From assembly GCF_026151205.1 (NCBI RefSeq), contig NC_087080.1, forward strand, positions 1,963,096 through 2,027,095: 64,000 bases of DNA. The letters run 5' to 3'. Source of the stretch: Bolinopsis microptera. Its lineage: Eukaryota > Ctenophora > Tentaculata > Lobata > Bolinopsidae. The translations under genes were made by a program, and so were the position numbers. Positions 23 through 50,226 of the stretch are shown one piece after another (position 1 is the first letter of the stretch; each line of letters starts with the position of its first letter). The notes under the pieces were generated by a model, which did no database searches, had not been told where the DNA came from, and saw only the letters and a list, made by a program, of their open reading frames with translations.

Positions 23-3000
23 GTGACCGAATGGTCTGAGTGGTCTGAGTGTGACGCAGAATGTGGTCCAGGACAACAGACCCGAACTCGGAAAGTAGTG
101 GGAAGGATATGGGAGACAGTACCGTGTCCTGACCTAAAGGAACGTAAGGAATGTGGAGCAGGTTTGTTGTGACAGAGCAGGCCGTTTAATCTTATATTGA
201 GCAAGAATGCTGGATATAAAATTGACGGTACAGTGATATTATGCTATTGTTAGTATACCGTGTAGAGAGCCCAGAGAACACTGATTATGTTTGCTGTGTG
301 GTGCTGATAATATAGAATAATTATAATGAGATCTCGTGATATATATAATATGTCTTTAATGATTGAAGTTAGGAGATGCTAAAAGTGAAAGAAGTAGTGT
401 TATTTATTATCTGATTATGTGATTAAACCATCACCGTATAATGATGGTGTAGATTGTCTGTGTGTTTCACAACCTTCATGTAACCAAAGTATTTCACAAC
501 AATTTCAGTAGATCTAGTGGGCGTCTCCATGACCAGCCCGGACAGATACACATTCAGCATTAACAAAGGACGTCTAACAAAAGGTAGTGGGATCAAGATA
601 AAAGGAGCATTTTCTGGTAGATATCGCGGGGTTGTGGGAGTTAACCTTCTCACTAACTCTGGAGATACTGTCTGCAGGATTGCACTGAGGTAGGTTTATC
701 TTACTAGGGCTGGAAAATCGGTCTTCTTTATAATTATCCAAGCTTAGACGGTTGGTTTTATACTTATTTCAATATTTGTTGAACTCTAAGTCAGTAATTT
801 TGTGCAGATTTCAATGTGCAAATGTCATGTTTGATCTTTTGGTAAATTATTGCTGGAAACCATTTAATGCTATTTCAGATTCGATGGTTCGGAAGAGGAA
901 GTTAAAACCTTAGGAGAAAAGAAAATAGCTTTTTACACAGTTTACAGCGGAAAGAAGCAAGTAAGCAGCTAGTAATGTTTATAAAATCTCACTTTGTAGT
1001 TATATTAACTACATATTAAGGCCAGAGGGGGGGGGTAAATGGCACTTTTCTAGTTTTCACATATTTGATAATAGCTGCTATAGACGAACAAGAAGAAAAA
1101 AACCGGATCAAAATCTGACCTTGCGCAATTCTTAGCTATCGCGCGCTAAATTTTGAGGTTTACCTGTAATTACATGTTAAACTGGATCTTTAAACGGCTG
1201 TAATTTTTTTGACCTTTCGATTCCTTAGTTGAGAAAACCGGCCACTCCCTGATCTTGAGGTTTGGTACAGTGGTTCCTTGGACAATTATCCTCATTTATG
1301 GTGCAGCGATTTTTTTTATTTGACTCGGTTCTCGAATTATGAGGTTAACCATGTCAAAAATTCGGAAAATTTAATTGGTTAACCTCATAAATCGAGAAAC
1401 GAGTCGAATAAAAAAATCGCTGCACCTAATATCTAGATACTTGTCCAAGGAACCACTGTACCAAATCTCAATATCAGAGGGTGGCTGTTCTTCTCAACTA
1501 AGGAACTGAAAGTCACACAATGTGTTTTGAGATAGATGCAATTTAGTGTTTTCAAAATTTTGAATATTCACTGGAATGTATCACAGTTCGTTAGTTAGGA
1601 CTTTCTATACACTTAACAACGTTTGCTTGATCAGACCTAGCCATCCCCTTAATGATTTTAGCCACTTTCAGTAGTTAATATCCTTGTATTGTAAAAAATG
1701 AGGTTAACCAAGACTTCTTGTAAACACTTACTGCTTAAAAGTAGTAAAAAATTGGTTGTTAACCTCGCTTCAGACCATTTAACACTGAGATTGGTTTATT
1801 AATATGTTATTATATATGTAGTAAAACATTTCCACAGTGTAACGAATAAGTTTTTGAGGTTAACATGTATTTGACTGGTCAGATATTCAAAAAATGAGAG
1901 GTTAACCTCATTTTTTAGCCATTTACGGATAAAATCTTCTACTAAAATATTATTATTATTATTATAAAACAGGATCTTACCGACAAAAATGATTATTAAA
2001 AATACCTTAATGCGGTAAACTGTACCCTTGAAAAAGATTTTCCCAACATCTGTTGCATGCAGCTATATCTCTAATTTCGTTCAATTCATACAAGTTGTCC
2101 ATTTGCAAATTTCTATTATTTAAATCACTTCTTAAAACCGATAACAAGTTCATTCTAGGTCTCCCCAATCTTCCAATGAATAAATTATCTGATTCAATAG
2201 CAAATGAGAGAGCCGTTTGGGCTGGGGTGTTCTCCATACTCCTGAGAATGTGTCCAAACATCTTCCACCGCTGGTGTTCAATACGCTTGGATAACTTTTC
2301 AACTTTGCACCTTTCATACAATGCTTTGTTGCTTATCATACCTTTAGGCCATTTGATGTTTAAAATGGACCTGAGGTGTCTACGATGGAGTGTGTCCATT
2401 TTCTCCATGGTTGCTTTCTTAGGACTCCAACTATTTGAGTTGTAAATCAATACAGATACAACTTGAGCATCATATAACCTCAGCTTTCTTTCAAGGGATA
2501 TTTTCTTACCAGACAGCCAAATTTTTTCAAAGTTCTTAAAAGCAATCTCAGCTAGGATTCTTCTTCTTTGAATGTCCTTCTCAGTACACAGTAAGGAACC
2601 TACTACCTAGTGACTTGTTACTTCGCCATGGTTCGTTATTAGCTAATGGCTGACCGTTTGTATCTTTATCAGATTTTTTCGCTAGGTAGAAGGTACTGAA
2701 TTCAGTTTTACTTTCATTTACTTGGAGGTTCCAGTCTTTGAGAATCTCCTTCACTGTAGGAAGGAAAATTCTCAGTTTCTCGATGTCCTCGTCAGCAAAG
2801 TCACAATCGTCTGAATATTCCCACTCAGTTGGAAAACCTAGTTCTGATACTGGTGGGTTTGGTCTCCCAGATACAGCTCTGAGGTGGTGTAAGGCTGCTG
2901 CAAGAATAAGTGTGAATAGCTTTCCAGATAAACTGTCACCTTAAAAGGCTCCGAGTAAACTTTCAAACTCTTCCGACAGTGAGGAGTTAACACGAACTCT

Positions 3001-6000
3001 AAGGAGAGTATTCGATAGAAGGTATTGAACTAAACGAATGTCGTCCTCCGAACAACCAGCATCTTTCAAAACATTGATGATAGTGTCCCTTTTCACGGTA
3101 TCAAAAGCTCTACTCATATCAATACCCATTTTGCTAAATGTCCATTTCTTCCTCATCACAACAGATATGAGCATTCTCTGAGCCCACACAATGTCAGAGC
3201 AGCTCCTACCTCTCTTGTAAGCACTCTGCCATGGCATGGTGTAGTTGTCAATTCTACTCTCAACCCGTTTTAAGGCAATTTGAGTGAGCATCTTCCTCGA
3301 TCCGTTTAACAGTGTAAGTGGCCTAAGGCTTGTGAGGGGACCCTTAGGTTTACCGGGCTTTTGTAGAGGAGTCACAATACCTTGTCCTATCGAACTTATG
3401 TATTTTTTCCCACTAAATGACTCGTTAATTGCCTCAGCATACTTCTCAAAAGTGATTGGATGGGCGTACTTTATCAGCTCATTCTGGAGATTATCTGGAC
3501 CACTGGCACGGTTTGATTTGAGTTTACTTGCAGCAAGTTTAACTTCAACTGGTGTGATGGGGTTATCAAGTGGTTTTGGATCGCAGGTAAAAGGTTGCAG
3601 GCCAGCTTCAACTCCTTCTGTTAGTTGTTTTTCGAAGAAAGATTTCGCTGTGTTTGCTTTCCCTAAATCAGTACCAATAGGTATGGTCAGTTCAAATCAC
3701 CTTTGTCACGTGATTATAGTTGTAGGCATTGCGATACCAATAGATACCTCACTGCGATATTGTGGTACATTACATAAGTAAGAATCGTATTTATATTCCC
3801 TACGGTACCAAAATGTGATAGTTAACCTCATTTTTTCATTTTCCCAAGATAAAAGAAAGTCAATCAACACGTCATCTATTTAGATATATGCATACCGGAA
3901 ACTAACGATGAAAATAATAGCTCTATCATTTGATCTATTCTCGCTATATCTAAAAAAAGAGGTTAACCTCATTTAATCACGTTTGGAAATTACTTTTTCT
4001 GATAATTATGAACCTAAAATTTAGAGTTAACATTTGCTGACCGAAATAACAAAAAATTATGGAGTGTAATAAAATATTAACCTCGATTTTATTAACCTCA
4101 ATGTTGTATAGTCAATTTTGTGAAAATCGGTTAACCTCAATTATTAAAAAATTTAAGCAGCTACAAATATGTGAATAGCAGCAATGTTTTTGTCATCAAA
4201 AGTTATATTGATTTAGAAAATAATATTTTGGTCGAAGTTTTTGACCCCTTACCCCCCCCCCCCCCCCTCTGGCCTTAAACTTAATACATAAAACGTGCCA
4301 AAGATTGCTGGTCTCAACTAATTTCTAAACAAAATTAACAAACTTAAAACATAGTTTTAAAAACCAGCACTATAACACAAAACCTAAAAATCCATTTCAG
4401 CTTCTAGAACCCTCCTTCGACATGTTTAACTACAACAGGGGGGAGATGATCCTCAATCTTAAAGTAGAAGACACGTTCAGACTTGATATAGACCAGGATG
4501 GAAAAGTCAGGAGGATAATATCTCAGATACCCGCCTACAACTCCAATCTTGTTACCAAGATAGAACTAGAGCGCATACACCCTTTTACCTTGAATTGGGA
4601 GAATCACTTGAGCATTACCGGTAAGTCGAGGAAATGTGTGATTTGTTGCAGTCACATTTTATTCTGCCTGGCCTTATTCAGGATCGTCCTGAAAGAATTA
4701 AGCGTCGACCGTCGCGTCGAACTGACCACAAATCAATCTATTCTCACTGATTGTGCATGATTAATGGAAACGAAGTTTATCCGTTATCAGTATTGTCTCA
4801 GTAATTAGCAGATGAAAAGAGAATTTAGCAGCAATCACAGAATCACAGTGATGTTTTGACCTTAAGTTAGACAATCCTTAAGTAAAGATCTTTAGAGAAA
4901 GATATGACTTAACTTGTATTGTGCGTTGTTTTCACTATTATATAGTTAAGAATTGTTCCCAATAATACCCACTAATCAGATGCTAGATGCGAAGTGATAG
5001 ATTGCAAGGTAACAGAGTGGAGCGAGTGGGAACTGGTCTACGATACTAGAGTTCGTACTCGCCGTATAGAGGTGTACCCTACTCGTAGTGGACAGCAGTG
5101 TCCTCTACTTCAACAGGTAAGAGACAGCAGTGTCCTCTACTTCAACAGGTAAGAGATGATATTTTAATGCCACTCCGTACTCAAGTTATGTTCTGAATTT
5201 ATGAATAAATCAGGCTCCGCTCGCGCTGCCTTTAACACTGTACACGAATATAAGTGCGGAAATGATCTTTAAAAATGTGTGTGTACGTTGTTCTGATCAA
5301 ATACTTTGTCTTCATAATACAAATGTTTTGCTTATATTGGTGTTGACATTTCATTACAGTATTTATTTTCCACTATTTCAGGTAGTTCCCTGTTCAGATG
5401 GGTTGTGTCCTGGAAGAGACTGTGAAGTCAGTGAATGGACAGGCTGGAGTGAGTGCCCTGTCTCTTGTGTTGATCTGGAGACAGATATTATTAATGTAAC
5501 CAGGAAACGCGCTATCATCACTAGACCCGATCATAGTAAGTTATCAGAGTGATAATTAGCGTACAAGTGCTCAACGTAATAAATAAACATAACAATATGC
5601 TGATTGCTTAGTTTAAAAGCTTATGAAATTTTCTGTGAACTATATCTATTTACGTTTTAGGCTCATAAAATGTCCTTTTCTGAGGACAGTTATCAAAAAT
5701 GGCTAAAAAATAACATAAGTACATGACGATTAATGATTCAGAATGATAAGACTTAACCTCAGGAGGAAAAGAGTGCCCTGGACTAGTTGAAACTAAACCC
5801 TGTGATCCCGTACCCTTACCCTGTACAAGTAAAACTGACTGCAAAGTAAGAATCAAGTTACTTTAAACTTATTCAGCAGTTTATACATCTTAGTATCTTT
5901 AGGTATTATAAGGTGATTGTTGAATGTCGATAAATCGTTATATCATTGCTTTAAATACCATAATAATTTCATGCAATAAACTCACAAAACGTTTTAAATC

Positions 6001-9000
6001 TCAAATCACAAAATAAGCAATTGAATCTCGGTTAGAGCTTGTAAAATAGTCTCAATTCTTCAAACTAGGTCAGTGAGTGGAGCCCGTGGGCATTCGGGTT
6101 TGTTGAAGAAGGAGCTGTTATACAAGAAAGGATGCGGACGATTATTACTGAACCTGAAAATGGCGGGAAGATATGTCCAGATCAGTGGCAGGTAGATTTT
6201 TCGTTCGTTCGTTTGTTGGATTTTATGATAATCTGAAACAAAAGTTTGTTAAATGATAGCTTCTGGTTAATATTACGTTGATTTCTAAGTTAAAATCATG
6301 AAATGTAACCAAGATTCCGGAAATAATATATTACTCTTAAAATATAACCTTATCTTCTTTGTATTAAAATAACATCAAATGTACTGACTAGTTCCGAGAC
6401 TGTTCTGAAGAAACGTGTTTACTAGACTGCAGACTTTCCCAATGGACCATCTGGGGAGAATGTTCGGGAAGTTGTATCTCTGATGAGAATATACCAATCA
6501 CAACTAGAAGAAGAACGATAGTTCAACAGCCCATAAACGGTAAGTTGAGCGATATTTTCTTTGCGTATAACATAGATCTTAGATTTAAAAGCAATCTTGT
6601 GCTATTGAGATTTTGTGAAAAGTTTTTAAATGTTTTCAGAATAACTTATATAAACTGAAGTTGAATAATGAATATTACTGTAAGCATTAAATTGTTAACC
6701 ATTTTCTGAAATTTGTTCACTCTTTATTGTAAGTGGTTTTGCTGACGGCTCTGAAATGTCTGAACACTTTTGCTTTTCAAGCTGAATTAAGCATTATTTT
6801 ACACAACTCAGGTGGGAAACAGTGCGAAAAGACACTGGAAGAAACACAACATTGTGAAAAACTCTCCGAATGCGAGAAAGAGGAGGAAAAGGAAAATGAA
6901 AAGAAAAAGAAAGAAAACGAGGCAGAGGAACAAGAAAAGGAAAGGAAAAAGAAAGAGGAACAGGAAAAACAAAAGAAAGAAAAAGAGGCTGCTGACGAAA
7001 AGGAAAGGAAAAAGAAAGAGGAACAGGAAAAACAAAAGAAAGAAAAAGAGGCTGCTGACGAAAAGGAAAGGAAAAAGAAAGAGGAACAGGAGAGACAAAA
7101 TAAAGAAAAAGAGGCTGCTGACGAAAAGGAAAGGAAAAAGAAAGAGGAACAGGAGAGACAAAAGAAAGAAAAAGAGGCTGCAGACGAAAAGGAAAGGAAA
7201 AAGAAAGAGGAACAGGAGAGACAAAAGAAAGAAAAAGAGGCTGCTGACGAAAAGGAAAGGAAAAAGAAAGAGGAACAGGAAAAACAAAAGAAAGAAAAAG
7301 AGGCTGCTGACGAAAAGGAAAGGAAAGAGAAAGAGGAACAGGAGAAACAAAAGAAAGAAAAAGAGGCTGCTGACGAAAAGGAAAGGAAAAAGAAAGATGA
7401 ACAGGAGAGACAAAGAAAAGAAAAAGAGGCTGCTGACGAAAAGGAAAGGAAAAAGAAAGAGGAAAAGGAGAGACAAAAGAAAGAAAAAGAGGCTGCTGAC
7501 GAAAAGGAAAGGAAAGAGAAAGAGGAACAGGAAAAACAAAAGAAAGAAAAAGAGGCTGCAGACGAAAAGGAAAGGAAAGAGAAAGAGGAACAGGAAAAAC
7601 AAAAGAAAGAAAAAGAGGCTGCAGACGAAAAGGAAAGGAAAAATAAAGAGAAACAGGAGAAAGAAAAGAAAGAAAAAGAGGCTGCAGACGAAAAGGAAAG
7701 GAAAAGGAAAGAGGAACAGGAAAAACAAAAGAAAGAAAAAGAGGCTGCAGACGAAAAGGAAAGGAAAAAGAAAGAGGAACAGGAGAAAGAAAAGAAAGAA
7801 AAAGAGGCTGCTGACGAAAAGGAAAGGAAAAAGAAAGAGGAACAGGAGAAACAAAAGAAAGAAAAAGAGGCTGCTGACGAAAAGGAAAGGAAAAAGAAAG
7901 AGGAACAGGAAAAACAAAAGAAAGAAAAAGAGGCTGCTGACGAAAAGGAAAGGAAAAGAAAGAGGAACAGGAGAGACAAAATAAAGAAAAAGAGGCTGCT
8001 GACGAAAAGGAAAGGAAAAAGAAAGAGGAACAGGAGAGACAAAAGAAAGAAAAAGAGGCTGCAGACGAAAAGGAAAGGAAAAAGAAAGAGGAACAGGAGA
8101 GACAAAAGAAAGAAAAAGAGGCTGCTGACGAAAAGGAAAGGAAAAAGAAAGAGGAACAGGAGAGACAAAGAAAAGAAAAAGAGGCTGCTGACGAAAAGGA
8201 AAGGAAAAAGAAAGAGGAACAGGAGAGACAAAATAAAGAAAAAGAGGCTGCTGACGAAAAGGAAAGGAAAAGGAAAGAGGAAAAGGAGAGACAAAAGAAA
8301 GAAAAAGAGGCTGCTGACGAAAAGGAAAGGAAAGAGAAAGAGGAACAGGAAAAACAAAAGAAAGAAAAAGAGGCTGCAGACGAAAAGGAAAGGAAAAAGA
8401 AAGAGAAACAGGAGAGACAAAAGAAAGAAAAAGAGGCTGCTGACGAAAAGGAAAGGAAAAAGAAAGAGGAACAGGAGAGACAAAAGAAAGAAAAAGAGGC
8501 TGCTGACGAAAAGGAAAGGAAAAAGAAAGAGGAACAGGAAAAAGAGGCTGCTGACGAAAAGGAAAGGAAAAGGAAAAAGAAAAAGAAAGAGGAAAAGGAC
8601 CAGGACCAGGACCAGGACCAGGACCAGGACCAGGACCAGGACCAGGACAAGGATAAACAGGATGAAGAAGAAGATTGTCTGATAACTGATTGGTCGCAAT
8701 GGACGCTCTGCGATAAGCCTTGTGGCGACGGGGAACAGCGTCGATCACGTATCCACGAAGCTCATGAATCAAGCGATTGCAAAAAACAGACGGAAAAGAG
8801 ACATTGTCAAATAAAACAATGTGAAAAGGAAGGAGATGAGGAAAAGGAAAAGGAAAAAGAAGGGGAAAAGGAAAAGGAAGGGGATGAGGAAAAGAAAAAG
8901 GAAAAAGAAGGGAAAAAGGAGCAGCAAGCGTGTAAAGTTGGATATTGGGCTGATTATTCGTCATGCGTTCCCGAATGTGGATCGAACAGGAAAAAAACCA

Positions 9001-9387
9001 GAAGCAGGCCTGTAACAGTGCTTGTGGATGGTGCTATTTGTCCCCCGACAACCATGACCGTAGACTGTGAGTTCAAGAAATGTGAATCATGTCCTGTAAC
9101 GGACTGGGGGAAATTTGGACCTTGTGATTGTAAAACGAAGAAACGTGCTGCTGAAAGAATAGTAGAAAAGGGAGGGGTCTGTATATCATCAAAGCGTTTC
9201 AAAAAGTGCAAGGTATCTAAATTTGAGTTATCTTATCGTTAATTTTCCACCATATCAACTCGTGCGATTTTATATTGCATCAAACGAATTAGAGAATAAT
9301 AATTGTTTAAAATGGTATTGCTTTTCAATACTTGATAAACTGAATAAAATATTGATGTTGAAAATTTCCCAGGGTTTGGATTGCTAG
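23..9387 (+). CDS. TSP1-repeat / galectin-like / Lys-Glu repeat protein (5' end outside window)
   Basis: Eleven exons: 23-161, 509-689, 879-960, 4401-4620, 4980-5116, 5382-5535, 5763-5845, 6069-6191, 6392-6539, 6812-9212 and 9373-9387 (stop TAG). Every junction is GT-AG and phase-compatible. Order of domains: a TSP1 repeat (VTEWSEWSEC start); a galectin-like segment of about 160 residues over exons 2-4, with the strand pattern ...VGVNLL...IALRFD...; four TSP1 repeats; a Lys/Glu array of about 540 residues; a run of Asp-Gln pairs; then three TSP1 repeats. The last exon adds only GLDC-stop, which supplies the closing cysteine of the final TSP1 repeat. The galectin HxNPR and Trp-Gly signatures are not visible, so sugar binding is doubtful. 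TSP1 repeats with paired cysteines imply a secreted or cell-surface protein; the signal peptide would lie upstream. One base is missing from an A run near 7954, so the array changes frame once. I do not recognise a named orthologue. Confidence 0.85.
1211..1515. repeat. Foldback with roughly 130-bp arms
   Basis: The left arm (about 1211-1345) is the reverse complement of the right arm (about 1375-1515). Both contain a CCTTAGTTGAG end, the string GTGGTTCCTTGGACAA, a GTGCAGCGATTTTTTT run and the TTAACC motif at the loop side. It is part of the larger TTAA-flanked element. Confidence 0.7.
2007..3700 (-). pseudogene. Non-LTR (LINE) reverse transcriptase fragment, RTE-like
   Basis: Read on the minus strand from about 3697 downward, the frame gives a fingers region (VTPLQKPGKPKGPLTSLRPL), a palm motif A with IDMSRAFDTV, motif B GDSLSGKLF and motif C with YSDD. 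A thumb and C-terminal region follows, with the RLGRPR and HILR strings common in invertebrate RTE-like elements. An in-frame stop at 2941-2943 sits immediately before motif B, where Gln is normal (CAA to TAA). A frame change occurs near 2600. The endonuclease domain is absent. It is a dead 5'-truncated copy, antisense to the host gene and nested in the TTAA element. Confidence 0.85.
5091..5154 (+). repeat. Perfect 32-bp tandem duplication spanning a splice donor
   Basis: The 32 bases at 5091-5122 recur exactly at 5123-5154 and include the end of exon 5 and its donor CAG|GTAAGA. This creates two identical donors at 5117 and 5149. Use of the first keeps phase 0 into exon 6. Use of the second adds 32 nt and shifts the frame. 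Confidence 0.9.
6945..8570 (+). repeat. 63-bp coding minisatellite (Lys/Glu array)
   Basis: About 26 copies of a 63-bp unit encode a 21-residue repeat close to KERKKKEEQEKQKKEKEAADE; the last copy is shortened. Most changes are A/G in the Lys and Glu codons, or GCT/GCA in the Ala pair. In the predicted protein the array is highly charged and probably forms a long single helix or coiled coil between TSP1 blocks. It is followed by about eight Asp-Gln pairs (8598-8650). Confidence 0.9.
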
Positions 9388-10420
9388 GCCACGATGGCTT
9401 CATAAAGATGGAACTGTTCTGGTTTTTAACCACTATTTAAATGTTGGGGCGGTAACGTTTTTAAATCGTGGACATGACAGAACACGTTTATGTAACACGC
9501 GATAACAAAATTGTACAAAAAAAGATTTGTTTCACATTTACTGCGACAGAATTGCGCGCCGCGTCATTTCAACTGCGCGCGCGTGAAGCTGACTATCGAG
9601 TAGGTAAAATTAATTTTTTAACTAACTGATACCCTGATTACAGCCATGACTGAAAGACATTAAAGTGCATTTTTCCTCTACTATCAAATGATATTAGTCA
9701 TATTTATCAATTCTGATTTATGCTAATAATAGTTGAATAAAATCCCTAACATAGCATATTAGCTATTAAGATGCTTAAACAACCTACGATATATATACAT
9801 TATAACCTGCGACCCTCCTTTTTATAACTTTGAGTTTTTTTGAAAAATCGTACGAAACTTCCATCTGTTATTTCTCATTCTTCGTGTAATTCATATCTTG
9901 TTATTTCTCATTCGTCTTATTTTCATCAATATTATGGTTTGACTGCTTAAAGTGTAAATTTATAGTAAATTGAATAGTAGCTTTGATTCAGGATTTTGCG
10001 ACGCGCACCGCCATTTTGTGATAGTGAACAGTTGAAGTGGTCTACTCCGCAGTAGAAATAACTTTGCAGCGTACAACGCCTCTTCCACAGGTACTCCCTC
10101 AAGAAATTTGCTTGAATCCGATCTGCTTGTTCACTAACGAAAGTTCCCTTAAGTGTATAGAGATATTGATCATGTTTGTGCTAGGGTCAATCCACGATTT
10201 TGATAGCAATGTGGGACTCGCCTGTGAAATTTTGGCTGAATTCTCCCAAGCCATTTCCAATGGCGGTAAGACTTTACGGCAATATGTAGAGTGGTCTGTG
10301 AAAGAGGCGTTACTTTGGACCGTTGTGTAGCTGTATTCATCTCAAGTCACAATTTGCTTTGTATTGATCAAAATTATGTGCAGTTAAATCGCCGACTTCA
10401 GTTCAGTATTAGTTCGTAAC
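9388..10420. other. Spacer between the TSP1 gene and SERBP1-type gene
   Basis: This holds the 3' UTR of the upstream gene and the promoter and 5' UTR of the downstream one. A GC-rich patch with repeated GCGCGC lies at about 9554-9585. No further convincing gene is seen. Confidence 0.5.
10008..10017 (-). promoter_or_regulatory. YY1-like site near the SERBP1-type gene start
   Basis: The string CCGCCATTTTG matches the reverse complement of the YY1 core (AAxATGGCGG). It lies about 400 bp before the ATG in a locally GC-rich stretch. YY1-type motifs are frequent at transcription starts of translation-related genes. It is a motif match only; the transcription start is not known. Confidence 0.3.
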
Positions 10421-13400
10421 ATGACTATCGCAAGAGACACAACAATGGGAGAGGCCCCATCCTACGGTATTGCCACTGGCAACCGCTTTGCTATGGTAGA
10501 TATCGGTGACGATATCGAAGATCCGGCCGAGTTCTATAATCTTATAGAACAGTCGAACGCCGCCAAGAAGGCAGAAAGCAAGAAAAAGAAGGAGAAAAAG
10601 CCCGAGAAAAAGAAAGAAGAAGAGAAAAAACCTGAGAAGAAAGGTTTGTACTCAGTGCCTAGTGTTTTTTGAACTAAGTTTTCCTACCGTCCAAAATGCA
10701 TCGAAAAGTTTCGCCTTAAATTTGGAGTGCTATTAGAATTTGTTGTAGAATTTTTTATTAATAATGCTGGGACGATTATATGTATCGTCCGAATAAAGCA
10801 CTTGTTTAAAAATCCTCTTGCAACTTGTTCTAGCCTTCTCGAATCCCCAGCTTATGTCCCAACTTTAACATTCAGAATATCCTCATTCGTATTTGAACTC
10901 TCTTAAACCTCTCTTGTCCCCAATTAATTATGAACCCTGATACCTAGATACATATATTTATTGTCGAATATTTCATTCTACTATCTCACGTCGTCCTTGT
11001 CTGCACACTCTTTTGTGATATCACAATTTCGTGCCCTTGAATATTTTACATTTTCTCACCAACTCATTTGCAGAGGAAGAAGCTGCAAAAGAGAACACGA
11101 GAGGTCGTGGTAGAGGCCGAGGTGGACGTGGTAACAGTCGTGGTCGCGGGGGAGAACGTGACGGCAGCGCTGACAACCGCAGACGATATAACCGAGACAA
11201 TGACGATAGCAGACCCCCTAGAATGCAGGTTTGTACATGAAAATACTTTTGGTATTCATTATTGCTAACTTTTAATAGCTTATGGTAGAAATATTTATAG
11301 GACTTATTCTAATATTTTGTTCTACAATTACATCCAGCCTTCTGACAGGACAGTGGAGGTGGATCAAATTTGTAAGCTGTTTAAAGTCAATATAATATCT
11401 CTATTACCAAGTTTAGCTATATTCCAGTTCAATAAGAGTATGGTAGCAGAAATATTTTTATTTTGACCGAAAATAATGCCCATTTCGCCTACTTACTCTG
11501 ATGGCCTGGGCACTGATGGGGTTGCCCCCTGCCCTTGGACCGCAGACTATATACCATTAATATAAAAATATCTGTTATCCCAGGACGATGGAGGTGACTC
11601 AAAACCAGAGGACGGAGACCGGCCTCGTGGTGGATACCGAGGACGCGGCAACAACCGTGGTCGCGGCCGTGGCGGTTACCGTGGAAGCGGCAGACAATAT
11701 GACAGACACTCTGCCGATGGAAGAAGGTGGGTTGGGCTTATTTAAATAATGTTTTTAGATTATAGGCTCATATGAATAAAATAGATTCTAACATTTATTA
11801 CACGACCCGACATTGAAAACATACCCAAGAAAGATCCGGTATACGTACTCTAGTTCGACACGTACTATAGTTCGACAAACCCCAAGCTAAGCTAAGGTTC
11901 GACTCTGTCGAACTAAAGTGCGCTACCTGGACTCAAGTTCGACACGTACTAAAATTCGTCTAAAGAACTTCGACTGTCGAACTAGAGTTTTGGAATCTCC
12001 GATCTCAAGCGACGATCCTATACGAGCTTGAAGTCTATTCGTTTGCTTGTTTTCCACTTGTCTCATGATGTTCAGCTATGTGTGAATGTAATCTCTATAA
12101 TCCATATCTATGGACATTTAATTGTCCTCAAACTCAACTGTTAGTTAGCAGAATTGTAGACTTAGTGGAGAGATAAAAGACTATCGTGGTAACTCTTATT
12201 CCGTTTTATAGATTTAGATTGTAGAGTACGCCATATAAATATTTGCCACATGACATTCCACACTTTATATTATCACAAACGACTAGAATTACTAGTAACC
12301 GAGTACATAGTATCGGTCTAGAGATTTGGCTGCTGAACCGGAAACAGTCTGATATCAATCTATTTTCCTGTTTGATACTGTTAGACCAGAACAAAGTGGC
12401 AGGAGAATTAAAATTATACTGAAAGGTTCTGGAATTTCTAACCGCTGCACTGGTTGCTAGATGTCAGAAAATTGATTTATCTGCCATTGAACCTTGTGAT
12501 CCTATGATGAGGACCCGGCAATAGCCGTTGGATCACAAGCAAAAACTATTTGTCGAACTAGAGTACGTTTACCGGACTCTAGTTCGACACGAACCGAAGC
12601 TCGACAGGGGTGATATCTGGCGAACTTAAGTTGTCGAACTATAGTGCTTGTCTAACTAGAGTACGTAAACCGAAAGATCCAAGTCATTAATTTAAGTCTA
12701 GGGGGATATAAAATGTTTTAAGGTCATTCAAAAAACATTCAACAGTTGATAATGCAGTATTCACTCACTGAGTATAGTAGGGGTATTGAAAAGAAAACAC
12801 CCTTTTCATATTTCCTACGATTTCATTGATAAGAAAGATACCTTATCTAAAATCTTGCCCGACCCTTATCTTTATTGGCTTACTTTTTTGATTTTTCACT
12901 TTTCTATTTCCCACGATAAATTCTCTTTTTTGCGAATTAATATAATGATGCATGCATGATCTCAGTATGCATTGTGCTGTACAGGCTACAAGTAACCAGT
13001 GTTTCGATTAATGTAATACGTGAAATTCTGTGCAAGTGCAGTGTGCAAAATCTTAGTCAATATATTGACTACATCATTCTCGTGAATTTCATGGACGTCA
13101 ATATTTAGTCCTATAATGATCTGAGCTCTTTTTGCACCACAACCATGAGAGATAGTGATAGAACTGACCGCTGGAGCATTCTTTACCCCACCCGGTCTGA
13201 CCAAAGTGAAAATTAGAGGAAGTTTTGCGATAGTTCAACTAAGTCAATCAAAAGATTACATTATTGCCGTAAATCCAACTTTGTTTGCATACTTCTAGAT
13301 CTTCTTTACCGTAGTGTTGAAGAATTTGGGTGTACTCTACCAAGTTAACCAGCTTTTTAATTTTTAAACTTAATAACCTGTATAGTACACAAATTACCAA

Positions 13401-16400
13401 ATATTTGGTTAACTGCAAAGTGCGAATCTGCATTCAAAAGATTGCTCAGTATTTTACAACCCTGATGACTTACAACAATATTGATACTTAGACCCAGATA
13501 TATAGATACATTAACCCATACGGTGCTATCAATATTCAATATATATTCTTACTGTACTAAAAAGTAATACTCGAAATACTTCGACATCAGTATGTGCTTA
13601 ACAACTGTAGATTTAGATTGCCAATGTAATGTACTGCGATTAGTTTAAAGATGATAATCGTCTCTATAATCCTAAATTGACAAGGAAATGCTAACATACT
13701 TCATGTATTTGATCTTTGGGTTAGGGAATGAGGGGGGTGTAAATAACCACGATAGTATAGTCATCACTTTAACTTGAATATCCGGAAAGCTGATTAGTTT
13801 TATCGACTTATTTCTCGGGGGTGTAGTGTAAAAAATTATATAGTAGAAAAGTGACATTTTTTCTCACCAAAGAAAGTTTGCAAAACCCCTGTTTGGCCTT
13901 TGGATATGTACTATGTGAAGACTGATAGGAATATAATAGGAAAAAAGTGTAATCTAGTGTACCTTTTTTACTACACATTTTACTGTGTAGTGTAAAAAAG
14001 TGTAAAAATTTATATTTTCATTCATTGACATTATATTACCTTAAACGTTTCTAGATAAGCTTCAAATATATTTAGATGGATGTAACTTTAAGAAACAATT
14101 TGTATGCCAATAACAATTCGAAGTTTGTTCTGTAATTTTAGTCATTAACGGAAGAAAAAATATGTTTTGGCCTAATATTCGGCTATTCTCACTTCTCAGC
14201 TAAGAAAGAAGAGACTACAAAATAAAATATTTCGATTAGTTTTAGGGTGTATGTATACCAAGTCGACGGCCAATAATTTCTTGGTAAAAGAACAAATTAG
14301 CATAATTTCCTCTCAATACCAAGGTGGACACAAATTTCGACACTGGATGGAAAATTATTAATATATGAGAGAAAACTGCTTAGCTCGTTATATTTTAAAT
14401 TTAATCAGTGCCTTGTCCTTTTTCCAGGGACAAGATCAATTTGCACTGAATTTAAATTTCCAGCGTTTTAAAATTTGGGAAAGTGACTGCCCATTTATTC
14501 CTAAATTTTTGGTCAAATGAACATATATCGGCATTGCGGTTTTTTAGCCTTAAGAACAGCTAAAACATGAGTAATGATGAAAATGAACACTAACATCGTG
14601 TTCTCCGTCCTCTAATTAGCAATTACAGATATATTTCAGCACATTTAAGTATGCCATGGTATCAGATATATTTTTCTTTTGATGGGGTTTGAAATCAAAT
14701 AATTCATTTGAGAATCTATTGTCTAAGACTAAGGATATTGGAAGATACGAAGAGATGCTGATTTTTTATTCTCGATAATGGTGGCTGCAAATTCGTACCT
14801 AGTCCTAATATCCGATAACGGATAAGTTAACAAATATAAACCCAAAATATCAATCAAAATATTGATTAAAATATGCTAGTGTTGATTGGAAATTTGGTCA
14901 AATTAATTAGATTTCATAAATAGATTTTATAAATAAATTACAATTGTATTTATAAATACGCTACCCATAATTCTATTATCGACGATACGATACTAAAGTC
15001 TATTTTGATATTATCTACCTAAATTCGTGTATTAAACACTGATATTATACCGCCTAATTTGCTGATCTACCTCAACCACTCCCGCATTTGGTTAAATAAC
15101 CGATGTGGTGTGTGTATGTGTGTGTAAACTGTGTCAGACCTGATGTATTAATGTCATTAAGCTGTTCTGTTTGGAAGGAAGTTCGTTGCGAACTGAGGAT
15201 AAATTGTGTTAGAAATACAGTGTTATCAACTAATTGGTTGATTGATCGTGTAAAATGTAAATGTGTGGGCCAATGTGCACACAGTATTGTTCATTTGTTG
15301 TCCATTTTGAAAGAAACAGGACATTACTATGAACGTTCCCTAAAAACGTGTAGCAGGTTGCTATGTATTGTAGTCCAGCAGGTTGCCATGTAGCAGGTTG
15401 CATTACTGTGCAGCAAGTTGCCATGAAGCAGGTTGCCATGTAGTCTAGCAGGTTGCCATGCAGCAGGTTGTCATGTAGCAGGTTGCCATGTAGCAGGTTG
15501 CATTACTGTGCAGCAAGTTGCCATGAAGCAGGTTGCCATGTAGTCTAGCAGGTTGCCATGCAGCAGGTTGTCATGTAGCAGGTTGCCGTGCAGCAAGTTG
15601 CCATGTAGCAGATTGTTATGCAGCAGGTTGTCATGTAGCAGGTTGCATTACTGTGCAGCAAGTTGCCATGAAGCAGGTTGCCATGTAGTCTAGCAGGTTG
15701 CCATGCAGCAGGTTGTCATGTAGCAGGTTGCCGTGCAGCAAGTTGCCATGTAGCAGATTGTTATGCAGCAGGTTGTCATGTAGCAGGTTGCATTACTGTG
15801 CAGCAAGTTGCCATGAAGCAGGTTGTCATGTAGCAGGTTGCATTACTGTGCAGCAAGTTGCCATGCAGCAGGTTGTCATGTAGCAGGTTGCCGTGCAGCA
15901 AGTTGCCATGTAGCAGATTGTTATGTAGCAGGTTGCCATGTAGCAGGTTGCATTACTGTGCAGCAAGTTGCCATGAAGCAGGTTGCCATGTAGTCTAGCA
16001 GGTTGCCATGCAGCAGGTTGTCATGTAGCAGGTTGCATTACTGTGCAGCAAGTTGCCATGCAGCAGGTTGTCATGTAGCAGGTTGCCGTGCAGCAAGTTG
16101 CCATGTAGCAGATTGTTATGTAGCAGGTTGCCATGTAGCAGGTTGCATTACTGTGCAGCAAGTTGCCATGCAGCAGGTTGTCATGTAGCAGGTTGCCGTG
16201 CAGCAAGTTGCCATGTAGCAGATTGTTATGTAGCAAGTTGCCATGTAGCAGGTTGCCGTGTAGCAAGTTGCCATGTAGCAGGTTGCATTACTGTGCAGCA
16301 AGTTGCCGTTTAGCAGGCTGACATGTAGCAGGTTGCTATAGAGCAGGTTGTGATACAGTTTTTTAATCATTCTACACAATTATAATTCCTCTAAAACAGA

Positions 16401-19400
16401 TGCTTAGGGGGGGGAGCCAAGTGGATATTTGTAGATATTTGGATAATGTCATCCACTTGGCTCCCCCCCCCCCCCCCCCCTGCTTAACATTCCGCCCAAT
16501 GTAAAAACAAAAGCTCACCTCTATCGTATGTGCCTTTTCAAAGTCAGTGTAAGTACGTGACTAAGTCACAAAAAGTCACGTCGTGACTTTTTGTCGCCCT
16601 ATAACGATCCTCTGTTATATGTTCTCAAAAGCACTAGATTTCAATATGCCCCATATTTGGGCTAATAGCTTATTTCATGGCTGCTCTTGTGCCGTCATAC
16701 TTAGTCGTGCCCTGGGCAGATTATTTTCATTTACTGCTATTTTTATCTGAATCTACAGAGTACAGATGAAGTGTATTGTACACGATAAGGAGAAATTGGA
16801 TCAGCTGTTGGCAGGGTTGTTGCTGATTAACTTGGACGTCATGGCTCACCGATAAAAAGTGTGCTGTTTAGGATAGGAAATTTGGTTTCACTTTTGATCT
16901 CAGGTTGATCGTTTACCACATCTATAAAATAACCAATAACTTTGTAAGTAGCCTGGGTAGTACGGCCATGTGTAACTTTAAGTGTTTAAAACTAAGGAAT
17001 ACATGAGCCCACTTAATACCTAGTGAATATTTAGCTGTATTAATTCTCCCTATCCCTAATATTCGTATTAACACTAACAATGATCTGACGACACCTTCTT
17101 TCAGTGGCAAGCCCTCAGAAAAGAGAGACGGAGGCGGTGCACACAACTGGGGTACACCTGTGGAAGAAGCAGCCGCCCCTAACTGGAGTGCTGATGCTGC
17201 CGCCGGTGACGGTTGGACAGCTCCTGCTGAGACCCCTGCTGCTGATGCTGGTGGTTGGGGAGACGTGCAGTAAGTTGTTGTATATTTGGCAAATTGTAGG
17301 AATCCATTTTAAGTGAACTTTTTCCAAGGACACGACAAATTCAAAATATCATACTACAGTCTTTCTGTGACACGGCTTTTTACCCCAAAAACTAGGCCTT
17401 AAACCTACACACTTCGCCTAGCTATAACCCCACTAGATCCCCAATTCAATCACAACCCAGGAACCCCATTTAAATTGGTGGGGGTGGAATATGTGGCCCC
17501 TCCATTATGCATTATCAGAGTCACTACTTGTGTCTCTATGTGCAAGTAGTGCTATTTAATGCCAAATTGATATCCTCGCAATAATCAAGCCCAGAAAACC
17601 AAATCATGCTTGTTCTGGCACCCACTATTGCTACAATTTAACACTTTTCTCTCTTGGCTATTGGGATTGCCCCTTTTTAATCTGATCTAACTTGATGGCT
17701 GTTTCAGGCCTGCTGCCTCTACCGAACCAAGTGGATTTGACAACGTTCAGCCAAGTAGCTCCGATGCTGCTCCAGCAAGCGGATTTGACAATGTCCTGCC
17801 AAGTGGATCTGAAGTGCCCAGTGGATTTGATAATGTCGAAGGAGCCGGAGAAAAGTAAGTTAAGTTGTATAGTTGTCACATTGATAAGGACAATGGCTGT
17901 GTACTTATGGATTTGTGCCGTTGTATACACACCTGATTTCTAGACCCGCGTGTAAATTGTTAAGCGGGCCGTGGCGCGATGCAGTTTCACTTGAACCAAC
18001 CATCCCCATAGGCGCACAATTTATGAAAAAAGTGAGCCGCGCGGCATTGATTTGTTCACAGTCCATGCTATCCTTGTCCAAAGTTATGAGGATTTACGAT
18101 TACGTAACCTCTTTGTCTTAACAGACAGTTACTAACCTAAGACAACCCATACTTAATGTTAAGAATAGGTAGGTAAGAACGTATTACTTATTCTCAATGT
18201 AAGAAGGTTTGAAATTAAGCCGTTTGTGAGTAACAGCATTATTTGATTAATTTCTTGTCATTACAGCGCTGATGCGGGACCTCCTAAGGAAGAAGAACCC
18301 GACCAAATGACTTACGAGGAATATCTGGAGAAATGTAATAACGAAAAGAAAGAAACTGTCTTCAATGTCCGAAAGGTAACTATCTTAGTACGAATACTTC
18401 CAACTCATCGTGATAAAATGAGATATAAGTCAGTCTACTAGCAGCCGAGTCTCTACTCTCGTGTTCTTAATATTGACATCTTAACTCAACTAAGCTAAGT
18501 CTGGTATTTTAATTGTTCCTCCTCTTTAACTCGGATAACTCCACAGCCTGGTGAAAATGAAGACGGTGGTCAATGGAAGAACTTCGCTCCACTCAAAAAG
18601 GAAGACCAAAATGCCTATATGGGTGGAATGGTGCGTAATCTTTGCTTATTTAAACATCCCTCTAAATATTTTCTTATGCCCTAAAGAAAGGGTCAGGTTT
18701 TCTTACGATCTCCTTCTTGGCACCCAATTTCCTCTCAAATCCATAATTTTCTCTTAGTCAGACTGCCGTCGCGTGTTTCTGGATGTGGGCATCTCTTCTG
18801 TTTTTTGCATGTTGCAATTCAGTGCTGCTGGTGCCTTCATTATTTCAGATCTTGCTCGGATGACTTCACTTTCAAACTTCTGACCTTATCAACTGAAAAA
18901 GTCCCACATAAGGCCATTTAATTCCTGATTTCAGCCGTTTTATATGAACTGTGAAACTTCTTGTCTTAAATGTAAAATGTTTTTCAGGACGAGTATGAGA
19001 AAATCATAGTCCGTGGAGGAAGAAAGAAGAACCTAGTCGATGTGGATGTCAAGTTCTCCAACCCATCCAGACGTGGTGGAAGAGGCAGAGGTAAGATACT
19101 TCATACGAGTCACCTCATTTACTTGTATATATTATTGAATTTTGAGCAAGAAAATAAAAGTATTAATTATTATTATGCGATCTCCTCGGTCGACTCAGCC
19201 GAATGACTTGATTGAGGGTTAAATGAGGAGGGGTACCTGTTAAAGGTTCAAGAAACTTCCTAGGATACCTCTTCAGTGCATACTGTAAACATAGTACTAT
19301 TAACTATTACTATTATATTTTCTCCTCCTGATATCTAATGATCTTACTCTGTATCTCATCAGAGGAACGAGGTGGAAGCAGAGGTGGCAGAGATCGCCGT

Positions 19401-19520
19401 GAAGACCGAGGTGATCGCCGTGAAGACCGCGGTGATCGTCGTGATAACCGGGCTCAGGCTGCTCCCAAAGCACCCAACCTGGAAAGTTTCTCAGAAACAG
19501 AGTTCCCCTCACTATCATAA
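10421..19520 (+). CDS. SERBP1: SERBP1/HABP4 (Vig-type) RNA- and ribosome-binding protein
   Basis: Nine exons: 10421-10643, 11074-11228, 11584-11726, 17105-17269, 17708-17854, 18267-18375, 18547-18630, 18988-19090 and 19363-19520. They total 1287 nt, i.e. 428 residues plus TAA. The N-terminus (residues 1-45) has the family NRF motif and an acidic stretch, then a KKKEKKPEKK basic region. RGG/RG boxes span about residues 80-175. Next comes the hallmark SGKPSEKRDGGGAHNWGT at the start of the HABP4_PAI-RBP1 domain, followed by MTYEEYLEK, a second RG-rich tail with DRREDRGD repeats, and the family ending ETEFPSL. Orthologues bind mRNA and 40S ribosomes with eEF2 and can mark dormant ribosomes. A local oddity is three SGFDNV repeats in exon 5. 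The start ATG is the first in the exon and gives the conserved N-terminus. Confidence 0.95.
11838..12671. mobile_element. 834-bp MULE-like TIR element with 9-bp target duplication
   Basis: The direct 9-bp duplication GAAAGATCC (11829-11837 and 12672-12680) flanks ends that are inverted: GGTATACGTACTCTAGTT at left, and the reverse complement GGTTTACGTACTCTAGTT at right. Both subterminal regions are packed with GTCGAAC/GTTCGAC in both orientations. No coding region is seen, so it is non-autonomous. A 9-bp TSD with multi-copy subterminal motifs fits Mutator-like elements. It lies in intron 3 of the SERBP1-type gene. Confidence 0.8.
12681..15340. other. Intron 3 sequence without recognised features
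   Basis: This is AT-rich intronic DNA of the SERBP1-type gene. There is a locally repeated AGTGTAAAAAAGTG-like stretch near 13940-14010. I see no coding region, RNA gene or clear transposon here. Confidence 0.5.
15345..16350 (+). repeat. 1-kb minisatellite, 15-bp basic unit GCAGCAGGTTGCCAT
   Basis: About 60 variants of a 15-bp motif (GTAGCAGGTTGCCAT and relatives) are arranged in higher-order blocks. A recurrent 17-20 bp variant reads GCATTACTGTGCAGCAAGTT, and ATTGTTATG variants recur with it. The higher-order pattern repeats several times, so whole blocks were duplicated. The short open frames rich in Cys/Ala/Ser here are by-products of the repeat. It lies in intron 3. Confidence 0.9.
16407..16480. 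mobile_element. 74-bp poly-G/poly-C hairpin element
   Basis: TGCTTA occurs directly on both sides (16401-16406 and 16481-16486). Between them is a palindrome: GGGGGGGGAGCCAAGTGGAT, a short loop, then ATCCACTTGGCTCC and a C run. The duplication plus hairpin suggest a minimal MITE; G-run length is unreliable in assemblies. Confidence 0.6.
16490..17104. other. End of intron 3, nothing recognised
   Basis: Intronic sequence up to the acceptor TTTCAG at 17099-17104. A small dyad, AGTCACAAAAAGTCACG with ACGTGACTTTTTG, lies at about 16563-16590. Confidence 0.4.
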
Positions 19521-22426: not shown

Positions 22427-22884
22427 TAAATCGCTCGCCCAAATTTTAAGAAAATTCTTGTGAAAAGGCCCTTTAGGCATGAAAGTGATCTTGTAGGTTT
22501 ACAACCTACCAGGACGCGCGCCGAGTTGGACTCGTCGACGGTCCAATATATGGAACAGATATTTTACGAGTATCACCCGTTAAAAGTGATCTGGATCGGT
22601 GTATTATTGGACGCTGATTCCGAATCACCCCCTATGACGTAGGGTTAAAATGCTTCCCTGGAGAGTTATGGGCAAAAAACCGTTTTGGTCACGTGACAGG
22701 CTAGTAAAACGTGAATTCGATTATTTAGGGTTAGGGTTAGGGTTGTGGTTCATGGTTAAGATTATGGATAGCTTCGGGGTTATGGTTAGGGTTAGGGTCG
22801 GGATTAGGGTTTATGTAAAACCGTTTTGTACAGCTGCAAAACCAAAAAAACCAAAGTCACGTGAAATTTTTGGGCGAGCGATTT
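22427..22884 (+). mobile_element. MITE with telomere-like TTAGGG core, copy 1
   Basis: Ends read CTACTAAATCGCTCGCCCAA at left and the inverted TTGGGCGAGCGATTTA at right. The core has TTAGGGTTAGGGTTAGGG and more degenerate TTAGGG units at about 22726-22815. On either side of the core are GGTCACGTGACAGGCTAGTA and a GTCACGTGAAATTT end. Copies 2 and 3 share this whole plan. Confidence 0.75.
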
Positions 22885-23319: not shown

Positions 23320-23708
23320 CCGCTTCTACTAAATCGCTCGCCCAAATTTTAAGAAAATTCTTGTGAAAAGGCCCTTTGGGTATGAAATTGATCTTAATCG
23401 GTGTATTTTTGGACGCTGATTCCGAATCATCTCCCATGACGTAGTATAGGGTAAAAATGCTTTCCTGGAGAGTTATGGGCAAAAAACCGTTTTGGTCACG
23501 TGACAGGCTAGTAAAACATGAATTCGATTGTTTAGGGCTCGGGTTAGGGCATAGGGTTAGGGTTGTGGTAAGGGTTATGGTTAGCTTCGGGGTTATGGTT
23601 AGGGTTAGGGTTGGGATTAGGGTTTATGTAAAACCGTTTTGTACTGCTGTAAAACCATAAAAACCAAAGTCACGTGAAATTTTTGGGCAAGCGAATTAGT
23701 AAGAGCCG
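23320..23708 (+). mobile_element. MITE with telomere-like TTAGGG core, copy 2
   Basis: Same plan as the copy at 22427: CTACTAAATCGCTCGCCC at left, a TTAGGG-rich core at about 23530-23625, and TTGGGCAAGCGAATTAGTA at right. Divergence from copy 1 is low. Confidence 0.75.
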
Positions 23709-25880: not shown

Positions 25881-26264
25881 GGCTCTTAATTCGCTCGCCC
25901 AAAAATTTCACGTGACTTTGGTTTTTATGGTTTTGCAGCCGTACAAAACGGTTTTACATAAACCCTAATCCCAACCCTAACCCTAACCATAACCCCGAAG
26001 CTAACCATAACCCTTACCACAACCCTAACCCTAACCCGGGCCCTAAACAATCGAATTCGTATTTTACTAGGAGTAGGCTGTCACGTGACCAAAACGGTTT
26101 TTTGCCCATAACTCTCCAGGAAACATTTTAACCCTACGTCATGTCGTCATGGGGGATGATTCGGAATCAGCGTCCAAAAATACACCGATCTAGAACACTT
26201 TCATTCCCAAAGGGCCTTTTCACAAGAATTTTCTTAAAATTTGGGCGAACGATTTAGTAGGAGT
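25881..26264 (-). mobile_element. MITE with telomere-like core, copy 3 (inverted)
   Basis: Inverted copy of the 22427/23320 element. It starts GGCTCTTAATTCGCTCGCCC, has a CCCTAA-rich core at about 25965-26045, and ends TTGGGCGAACGATTTAGTAG. Confidence 0.75.
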
Positions 26265-32273: not shown

Positions 32274-32290
32274 TGCTATAGTCGCACTGA
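32274..32290 (-). other. Likely 5' UTR splice acceptor of the GPCR
   Basis: On the minus strand, CTAACACCTCAG ends at 32287, only about 14 nt before the ATG. This suggests that the first, non-coding exon and promoter lie further upstream (beyond 32.3 kb). Confidence 0.35.
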
Positions 32291-32299
32291 GGTGTTAGA

Positions 32300-49590: not shown

Positions 49591-50052
49591 TTAAATGTCA
49601 CCACCGGGAGAGGTCAGGTAGTTAGGAGGAATCACCAGGTCTTCTAAGGAGATGGGGTTGACAGGATGGGAGTAGGCTGCCAGTCTGGCTCGTCTGACTA
49701 GTCGTGCCAAGGACTTGGGATCACAGTTGAGCCGGGACGAGGCTTCGAAGGATAGTCCAGCGACAGAGTCTGCAACAATCTGCTTAGTTGAGTTCTCAGT
49801 AGTAGCTGCGAGGGTCTTCATTTTAGACTTGGAGCGGTGGGCTGCAATTTGTGCTGGTTGAGATTCGTGGTCATGAGGGGTAGCAGAACAGAAGGTGTCC
49901 TGGACAAGGATCAGGCGGGACTTGCACTTGTTGCACTTCCAGTAGGTCTTGTCTTCCTTCTTTCTGTTAAGGTGGTAGAGGTGACCATCGTAGAGGACGT
50001 TGCGGCTGCCTTTCTTTCTGCCAGGAATAAACTCGATGGATGAGGAAGACAT
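49591..50052 (-). CDS. FLYWCH zinc-finger N-terminal segment of a MULE-type transposase
   Basis: An uninterrupted 153-codon frame beginning MSSSSIEFIPGRKKGS. It shows the FLYWCH pattern: aromatic-x-x-G-R-K-G, then DGHLYHLNRKKEDKTYWKCN, Cys-x-x-Cys, then a His-Asp-His pair at about residues 58-60. A basic linker and a short Arg-rich region follow. FLYWCH fingers occur at the N-terminus of many animal MULE transposases and in genes derived from them. The catalytic DDE domain does not follow; a stop after SPGGDI ends the frame. The transposon context favours a remnant, but the intact frame leaves open a small DNA-binding protein. Confidence 0.65.
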   Translation of the reverse strand: MSSSSIEFIPGRKKGSRNVLYDGHLYHLNRKKEDKTYWKCNKCKSRLILVQDTFCSATPHDHESQPAQIAAHRSKSKMKTLAATTENSTKQIVADSVAGLSFEASSRLNCDPKSLARLVRRARLAAYSHPVNPISLEDLVIPPNYLTSPGGDI

Positions 50053-50226
50053 AGTGGTATAAGATAAACACAGGCGTTGCGGGTTTATATATTATTCCCG
50101 CTAGCTGATTGAGATACCGAGCATGTGAAGGTTCACATCACTGTATTGTCGTATAGCAGGTCATTATGGATGACTTGATCCGAACCAGTTCTCGTTATGG
50201 CTCCTCGTTGCGTACGTAAGTCTGTG

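Follow-up and report, generated by a model that had tools for sequence, protein, structure and literature searches.

Gene model and domain order

The stretch of Bolinopsis microptera DNA analysed here (64,000 nucleotides of contig NC_087080.1, positions 1,963,096 to 2,027,095; hereafter the window) begins inside a gene that encodes a protein with many thrombospondin type 1 repeats (TSRs). Positions 23-9387 of the plus strand are the 3′ part of this animal gene, which is a real coding gene. Its first visible repeat, TSR1, is apparently interrupted by a foreign module, and its fifth and sixth repeats are separated by a long Lys/Glu-rich region that may form a helical rod. From stop-to-stop frames and splice borders we derived an 11-exon splice model with 11 AG acceptors, 10 GT donors and consistent phases. 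One interruption, a frame break within the Lys/Glu array, stands in these otherwise agreeing borders and phases, and the phase of exon 11 is consistent solely if it is counted from the frame downstream of that break. The features are as follows.

23-161, plus strand: exon 1, phase 0 in and 1 out in the splice model; TSR1 without its first Cys, up to and including the fifth (KEC-GA)
509-689, plus strand: exon 2, phase 1 in and 2 out; first part of the 161-residue module, with weak similarity to a galectin profile
879-960, plus strand: exon 3, phase 2 in and 0 out in the splice model; middle of the module
961-4400, plus strand: intron 3, containing a minus-strand non-LTR (long terminal repeat) reverse transcriptase remnant (about 2007-3696)
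4401-4620, plus strand: exon 4, phase 0 in and 1 out; last part of the module
4980-5116, plus strand: exon 5; the Cys of DARC (codon 4988-4990), proposed as the sixth of TSR1, followed by the start of TSR2 at 5003
5382-5535, plus strand: exon 6; TSR2 ends at 5408 and TSR3 begins at 5421
5763-5845, plus strand: exon 7; end of TSR3 (to 5824) and start of TSR4 (5840)
6069-6191, plus strand: exon 8; TSR4, with four Cys as in TSR2 and without the pair after the Trp motif
6392-6539, plus strand: exon 9; end of TSR4 (to 6418), TSR5 from 6428
6812-9212, plus strand: exon 10; TSR5 finishes at 6873 and is followed in order by the Lys/Glu region, TSR6, the Lys/Glu linker, TSR7 and most of TSR8
6874-8675, plus strand: Lys/Glu-rich region between TSR5 and TSR6, 1802 nt or about 600 codons; a 63-bp (21-residue) array with an Asp-Gln tail
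7930-7991, plus strand: array unit 16, 62 bp instead of 63, where the frame of the assembly breaks
8676-8822, plus strand: TSR6, TSP1_spondin E 2.3e-10
8823-8930, plus strand: second Lys/Glu-rich linker, 36 residues between TSR6 and TSR7, overlooked by the initial annotation of this locus
8931-9083, plus strand: TSR7, TSP1_spondin E 5.1e-7, under the cut-off
9090-9212, plus strand: TSR8, finished by exon 11; weak TSP1_spondin match, E 0.0075, under the cut-off
9373-9387, plus strand: exon 11; last four residues (GLDC, including the final Cys of TSR8), then the stop codon

The gene is truncated by the start of the window: exon 1 opens at an acceptor and the 5′ end lies upstream. Its first residues, V-T-E-W, parallel the V-S-E-W that opens exon 8, the latter following the Cys-Lys of the preceding exon, and TSR1 is the sole repeat without an opening Cys in view, which the other seven have.

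Thrombospondin repeats

Tested singly, all eight TSRs match the Pfam family TSP1_spondin, which is the best family for each of them, with E values from 3.6e-14 (TSR3) to 0.0075 (TSR8). Five (TSR1, 3, 4, 5 and 6, the last exactly at the threshold) reach the gathering score of the family, and TSR2, TSR7 and TSR8 fall under it. The part of TSR1 in exon 1 gives E 1.8e-12, and Pfam searches of joined parts return E 2.3e-50 with five stretches and, for the exon 10 part, E 2e-15 with three stretches. The initial annotation had counted eight TSP1 repeats, and this count is upheld as a minimum. No other spondin domain appeared in a Pfam search of three gene parts, the 5′ end being outside the window. 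A PDB search with TSR2-5 returned three sequences at E ≤ 0.01; two belong to thrombospondin-1 (best E 7.7e-5) and the third to UNC5B.

Six Cys are present in TSR3, 5, 6, 7 and 8, and TSR2 and TSR4 have four each, the pair after the Trp motif being missing. TSR1 has four in exon 1 and one more in exon 5 if exons 2-4 are read as a cassette; its first would lie outside the window. The WxxW motif, which is typical of TSRs, is found in six of the eight and is absent from TSR7 and TSR8. In global alignments TSR2 is nearest to TSR4 (score 75, 44%), which is itself nearly as near to TSR3 (74), and the mutual nearest pairs are TSR3 with TSR5 (107, 40%) and TSR1 with TSR6 (89, 36%). This pattern hints at a duplicated TSR pair and at no more than that.

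An exon cassette apparently inside TSR1

Exons 2-4 form a phase 1-1 cassette that splits the fifth Cys of TSR1 (KEC-GA, exon 1) from the DARC of exon 5. When six sets of adjacent exons were skipped in turn, the frame was kept solely with exons 2-4 all removed. The join of exon 1 to exon 5 then gives ...KECGADARCEVIDCKV..., in which the chain runs KECGADARC-EVIDCKV and the step from the fifth to the sixth Cys is 6, compared with a range of 5 to 7 across the remaining seven TSRs. Against the TSP_1 profile the joined repeat scores 34.2 rather than 35.2 bits, yet the match now extends to the profile end (49 of 49). The placement of the module thus rests on Cys spacing and phase, not on profile score. 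On these grounds, a 161-residue module has apparently been inserted within TSR1, between its fifth and sixth Cys, a position that the initial annotation had overlooked.

Several elements lie in or near the introns of this part of the gene. Intron 3 holds, on the minus strand at 2007-3696, the remnant of a non-LTR retrotransposon reverse transcriptase, which matches RVT_1 at 2944-3696 (E 2.2e-9) and DUF6451 below the cut-off of that family (E 1.2e-4). A fold-back element at 1214-1512 has 83% identity to its own reverse complement. At 5091-5156 a perfect 32-bp tandem duplication crosses the donor of exon 5; splicing from the second donor would change the frame and run into a stop codon.

The module and a possible galectin fold

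The 161 residues of exons 2-4 (483 nt, one Cys) had been described as a galectin-like domain, with a profile match to Gal-bind_lectin as the proposed check. At E ≤ 10 the module matches no Pfam family, and hence not this one, and no PDB chain (phmmer). An NCBIfam search gave a single match, to a single-stranded DNA-binding protein (E 0.009, 16.1 bits against a cut-off of 176), which we take as chance.

A further comparison used a profile of 12 galectin domains, five taken from database output and seven added by hand. With hhalign the module scores 20.4 against it, a value reached by 2 of 300 shuffles; hmmsearch gives 4.6 bits (bias term added back), reached by 5 of the 799 shuffles that were scored (1000 given). 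The match is limited to module residues 20-64. Taken alone, exons 2 and 3 score 20.1 (0 of 150 shuffles) and exon 2 scores 14.7 (8 of 150), and the values of exon 4 and of its core are reached by 113 and 114 of 150 shuffles. When the profile is reversed, the whole module still scores 16.7, and exon 2 scores 16.2, above its 14.7 with the true profile; the reversed module scores 15.8 against the true profile. Four galectins excluded from the profile give 97.4 to 155.6; one of these is galectin-10, which has altered binding residues. AlphaFold2 was uninformative for exon 4 alone, with a mean predicted local distance difference test (pLDDT) value of 41.2.

In galectins, sugar is bound through the residues H-N-R...N...W-E-R. 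In the alignment to the galectin profile the H and N of the H-N-R core are replaced and the R is kept, and the W-E-R part falls outside the aligned region. Sugar binding through the usual galectin residues is accordingly unlikely for this sequence. With a first half slightly above shuffles, a second half that is not, and a score of 20 against 97-156 for the held-out galectins, the earlier assignment is not confirmed; a galectin fold is possible and unproven.

The Lys/Glu-rich region and its frame break

Across both sides of the break, the Lys/Glu-rich region consists of E 33% (0.334), K 33% (0.333), Q 9%, A 9%, R 7.5% and D 6.5%. Its 63-bp array comprises 25.9 copies at 95%. We placed 26 array anchors between 6985 and 8544, and of the 25 spacings between them 23 are 63 bp, one is 62 bp and one is 48 bp, which stays in frame. 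The initial annotation had given a Lys/Glu array of about 540 residues. The 21-residue array is indeed present, but it is not one open frame because of the 62-bp unit 16, and the figure evidently spans the break, since 26 units of 21 residues make 546. The domain order given there fares similarly: the exon model does yield a TSR with a foreign module, four TSRs, the charged array and three TSRs, but the frame break interrupts it.

Array units 15-18 repeat units 1-4, and the one-base shortfall is the sole difference between the two blocks, which argues for a recent change or a sequencing error in unit 16. Downstream of the break TSR6-8 stay in frame, and exon 11 supplies the last Cys. We infer that the break arose by sequencing error or recent change and does not mark a fixed protein end. 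Frames within the array are open on both strands and in several registers, which means little in a purine-rich repeat.

A candidate single-alpha-helix rod

The charges of the consensus unit are arranged with an i+4 bias, i+4 being one of seven spacings tested. Opposite charges at i+4 occur at 0.52 per residue compared with a shuffled mean of 0.34, a value reached by 2.3% of 2000 shuffles, and like charges at 0.10 compared with 0.31, with 1.3% of shuffles as low. Opposite charges are rarer than in shuffles at i+2 and i+8, and nothing unusual is seen at i+1, i+3, i+5 and i+7. AlphaFold2 models five units (105 residues) as a single helix over residues 2-104, with a mean pLDDT of 96.2. The charge pairing and the helix model together suggest that the array is a single-alpha-helix (SAH) rod, and so favour the charged rod of the initial annotation.

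SAH domains are described as Arg/Lys/Glu-rich, with salt bridges from i to i+4 and i+3, and as bridging two functional domains; they extend at forces below 30 pN and show no unfolding peak (PMC4183817). The array resembles them in being Arg/Lys/Glu-rich, in its opposite charges at i+4 and in joining two groups of modules. It differs in that its flanks are TSRs and in that solely i+4, not i+3, is enriched. The word 'extracellular' is absent from the main text of that paper.

Comparison with known systems

No TSP1-galectin protein is described in the open-access literature searched, which is weak evidence of absence. Among multi-TSR proteins, the nearest parallels include the TSR proteins with a rhamnose/galactose-binding lectin, namely Hydractinia rhamnospondin (Rsp), which has eight TSRs and a C-terminal rhamnose-binding lectin, and Hydra Tsrp2, with eleven TSRs and one lectin module (PMC4820225, PMC3269628). 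Rhamnospondin shares the number of eight TSRs with the gene described here. However, its lectin is rhamnose-binding and C-terminal, whereas here the module appears to interrupt a TSR and a putative charged rod occurs as well. Rhamnospondin also has an N-terminal Ser-rich domain, any counterpart of which would fall upstream of the window. Three gene parts contain no rhamnose-binding (SUEL-type) lectin at E ≤ 10 in Pfam, the 5′ end again lying outside the window. Granular mucous gland cells express HyTSR1, a protein of the Hydra head region with 48 TSRs and, as described, no other predicted conserved domain (PMC4820225). It and other TSR-only proteins of Hydra share the long runs of TSRs, and the part of that account considered here mentions no charged array for them.

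Cnidarian nematocysts also use these modules. NSP1 combines TSP1 with LamG, and galectin in nematocyst proteins comes either with a collagen domain, as in nematogalectin, or without one (PMC6134521). As far as that source is drawn on here, NSP1, NSP3 and nematogalectin share TSP1 or galectin modules with our gene and differ from it in that the two sit in separate proteins. In seven anthozoan species, TSR proteins are reported with astacin, von Willebrand A, trypsin, ShK and immunoglobulin domains, and the word 'galectin' is absent from the main text of the survey (PMC5446238). The closest likeness by family is to spondin-like TSRs, TSP1_spondin being the best fit of all eight repeats.

A search with the 443-residue N-terminal part returned candidates from genome contigs of Pelolinea submarina (L001, 27% identity) and from viral contigs (L002 and L003), with significant matches that start in the TSRs; one L001 match (E 3.6e-7) begins in TSR1 and continues as far as the module's first third. 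Because the module alone reaches a best E of 0.99 there, we regard L001-L003 as TSR proteins and not as relatives in architecture, and they were left out of the remaining analysis.

Proposed function and alternative explanations

We give about even weight to a reading in which the gene encodes a large extracellular adhesion or mucus-type protein with many spondin-like TSRs, an SAH rod and a side module on TSR1. In such a protein the TSRs at both ends would bind matrix, glycans or cells, and a single-alpha-helix rod of roughly 550-600 residues between TSR5 and TSR6 would keep the two TSR groups apart. At the helix rise of 0.15 nm per residue the rod would be about 80-90 nm long if fully helical, and it might behave as a spring at low force. 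The 161-residue module would have entered TSR1 on a phase 1-1 exon cassette, and since the cassette sits between the fifth and sixth Cys, the module would form a side domain that projects from the TSR and is anchored by both of its ends. By analogy, the rod would most likely set the distance over which the protein links matrix, mucus or cells. Hydra has TSR proteins in its mouth region (PMC4820225), and a matrix or mucus role would be in line with them. Secretion, adhesion, presence of the rod in the real protein, exon shuffling and optional splicing of the cassette are likewise inferred. The most specific version, an exon-shuffled galectin-like side domain within one TSR as an exon set that is optional as a whole, together with an extracellular SAH constant-force spring of about 600 residues between TSR clusters, appears rather unlikely. 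If the full-length protein is made, it would show how a foreign domain can be accommodated inside the disulphide frame of one TSR. As an extracellular adhesion protein with a very long single-alpha-helix spacer, it would also offer a candidate spring for mucus or matrix.

Several results weigh against the adhesion-protein reading. No signal peptide is in view, the 5′ end being outside the window, and the donor of exon 1, gtttgt, is by eye the weakest of the ten. Joining exon 1 to exon 5 leaves the TSP1_spondin score no higher (46.9 compared with 47.8 bits). As assembled, the protein stops at 8680-8682 after 1045 residues in the window, without TSR6-8. For the rod, AlphaFold2 readily calls charged repeats helical, and opposite charges at i+3 stand at the shuffled level (0.33 compared with 0.34) although they are expected in SAH helices. 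Nor is there a synonymous enrichment among array units: over the 23 full 63-bp units (the 62-bp, 48-bp and last units left out), the synonymous share in the coding frame is 0.36 compared with 0.40 expected, with 0.13 against 0.30 in frame 1 and 0.33 against 0.18 in frame 2. The array itself therefore shows no selection on protein sequence, and because its substitutions are unbiased, its DNA alone leaves its frame unproven; the frame is established by the TSR halves on either side.

That exons 2-4 encode a true, very divergent galectin without the usual sugar-binding residues, making the protein a TSR-galectin fusion, falls only a little short of an even chance. Both profile methods and exons 2 and 3 place the module above nearly all shuffles, GRLTKGSGIKIKG... 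is set on the first strands of the galectin profile, which is the right place, and the C-terminal half also looks galectin-like by eye. Yet exon 4 scores no better than shuffles, exon 2 prefers the reversed profile, the other reversed controls still give 15.8 and 16.7, and even galectin-10 scores far higher; the missing Pfam and PDB matches and the lone R of the H-N-R core point the same way. We consider it doubtful that the array is an expansion, either intrinsically disordered or of simple-repeat type, with no mechanical role: its low complexity and near-identical units fit that account, as do the synonymous and i+3 results, but the i+4 pattern of opposite and like charges and the helix model do not. 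A real and fixed shortfall in unit 16, after which a basic frameshifted tail ends at 8682 and TSR6-8 are a decaying remnant, is unlikely. The assembly as given would agree with it, as would TSR7 and TSR8, which lie under the family cut-off and lack WxxW; against this, TSR6-8 retain their frame, six Cys each and an acceptor that supplies the last Cys, and the remainder of the four-unit block around unit 16 is identical to units 1-4, as expected after a recent change or a homopolymer sequencing error. It is very unlikely that two neighbouring genes or alternative exons have been joined, one a TSR gene with the 161-residue module and the other carrying the array and TSR6-8. The missing 5′ end and the weak exon 1 donor leave room for this, and mispredicted domain architectures are described as a known hazard in animal genomes (PMC3927609), but exon 10 alone holds the second half of TSR5, the array and TSR6-8, and the phases are consistent.

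Other features of the window

No RNA family reaches its gathering score in the window, and a search for tRNAs (bacterial code) found none there. At about 10388-19520 on the plus strand lies a likely SERBP1/HABP4-type gene, of which two of four frames tested match weakly and under the cut-off (IHABP4_N, E 0.0012; HABP4_PAI-RBP1, E 0.02); the other two are RG- or RD-rich. A nested tandem array of 15-bp and 145-bp units extends over about 970 bp at 15377-16350. On the minus strand, a split class A G protein-coupled receptor gene occupies about 27074-32294, where four of five exon-like frames tested match 7tm_1, one above the cut-off (E 2e-10) and three under it (E 6.4e-5, 0.001 and 0.031). Its split 7tm_1 exons, together with the structure of the TSR gene, indicate an animal source. 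A FLYWCH zinc finger at 49594-50091, also on the minus strand (E 9.8e-10), is perhaps derived from a transposon. Degenerate interstitial TTAGGG/AACCCT repeats are found at 22725-22811, 23532-23624 and 25961-26037.

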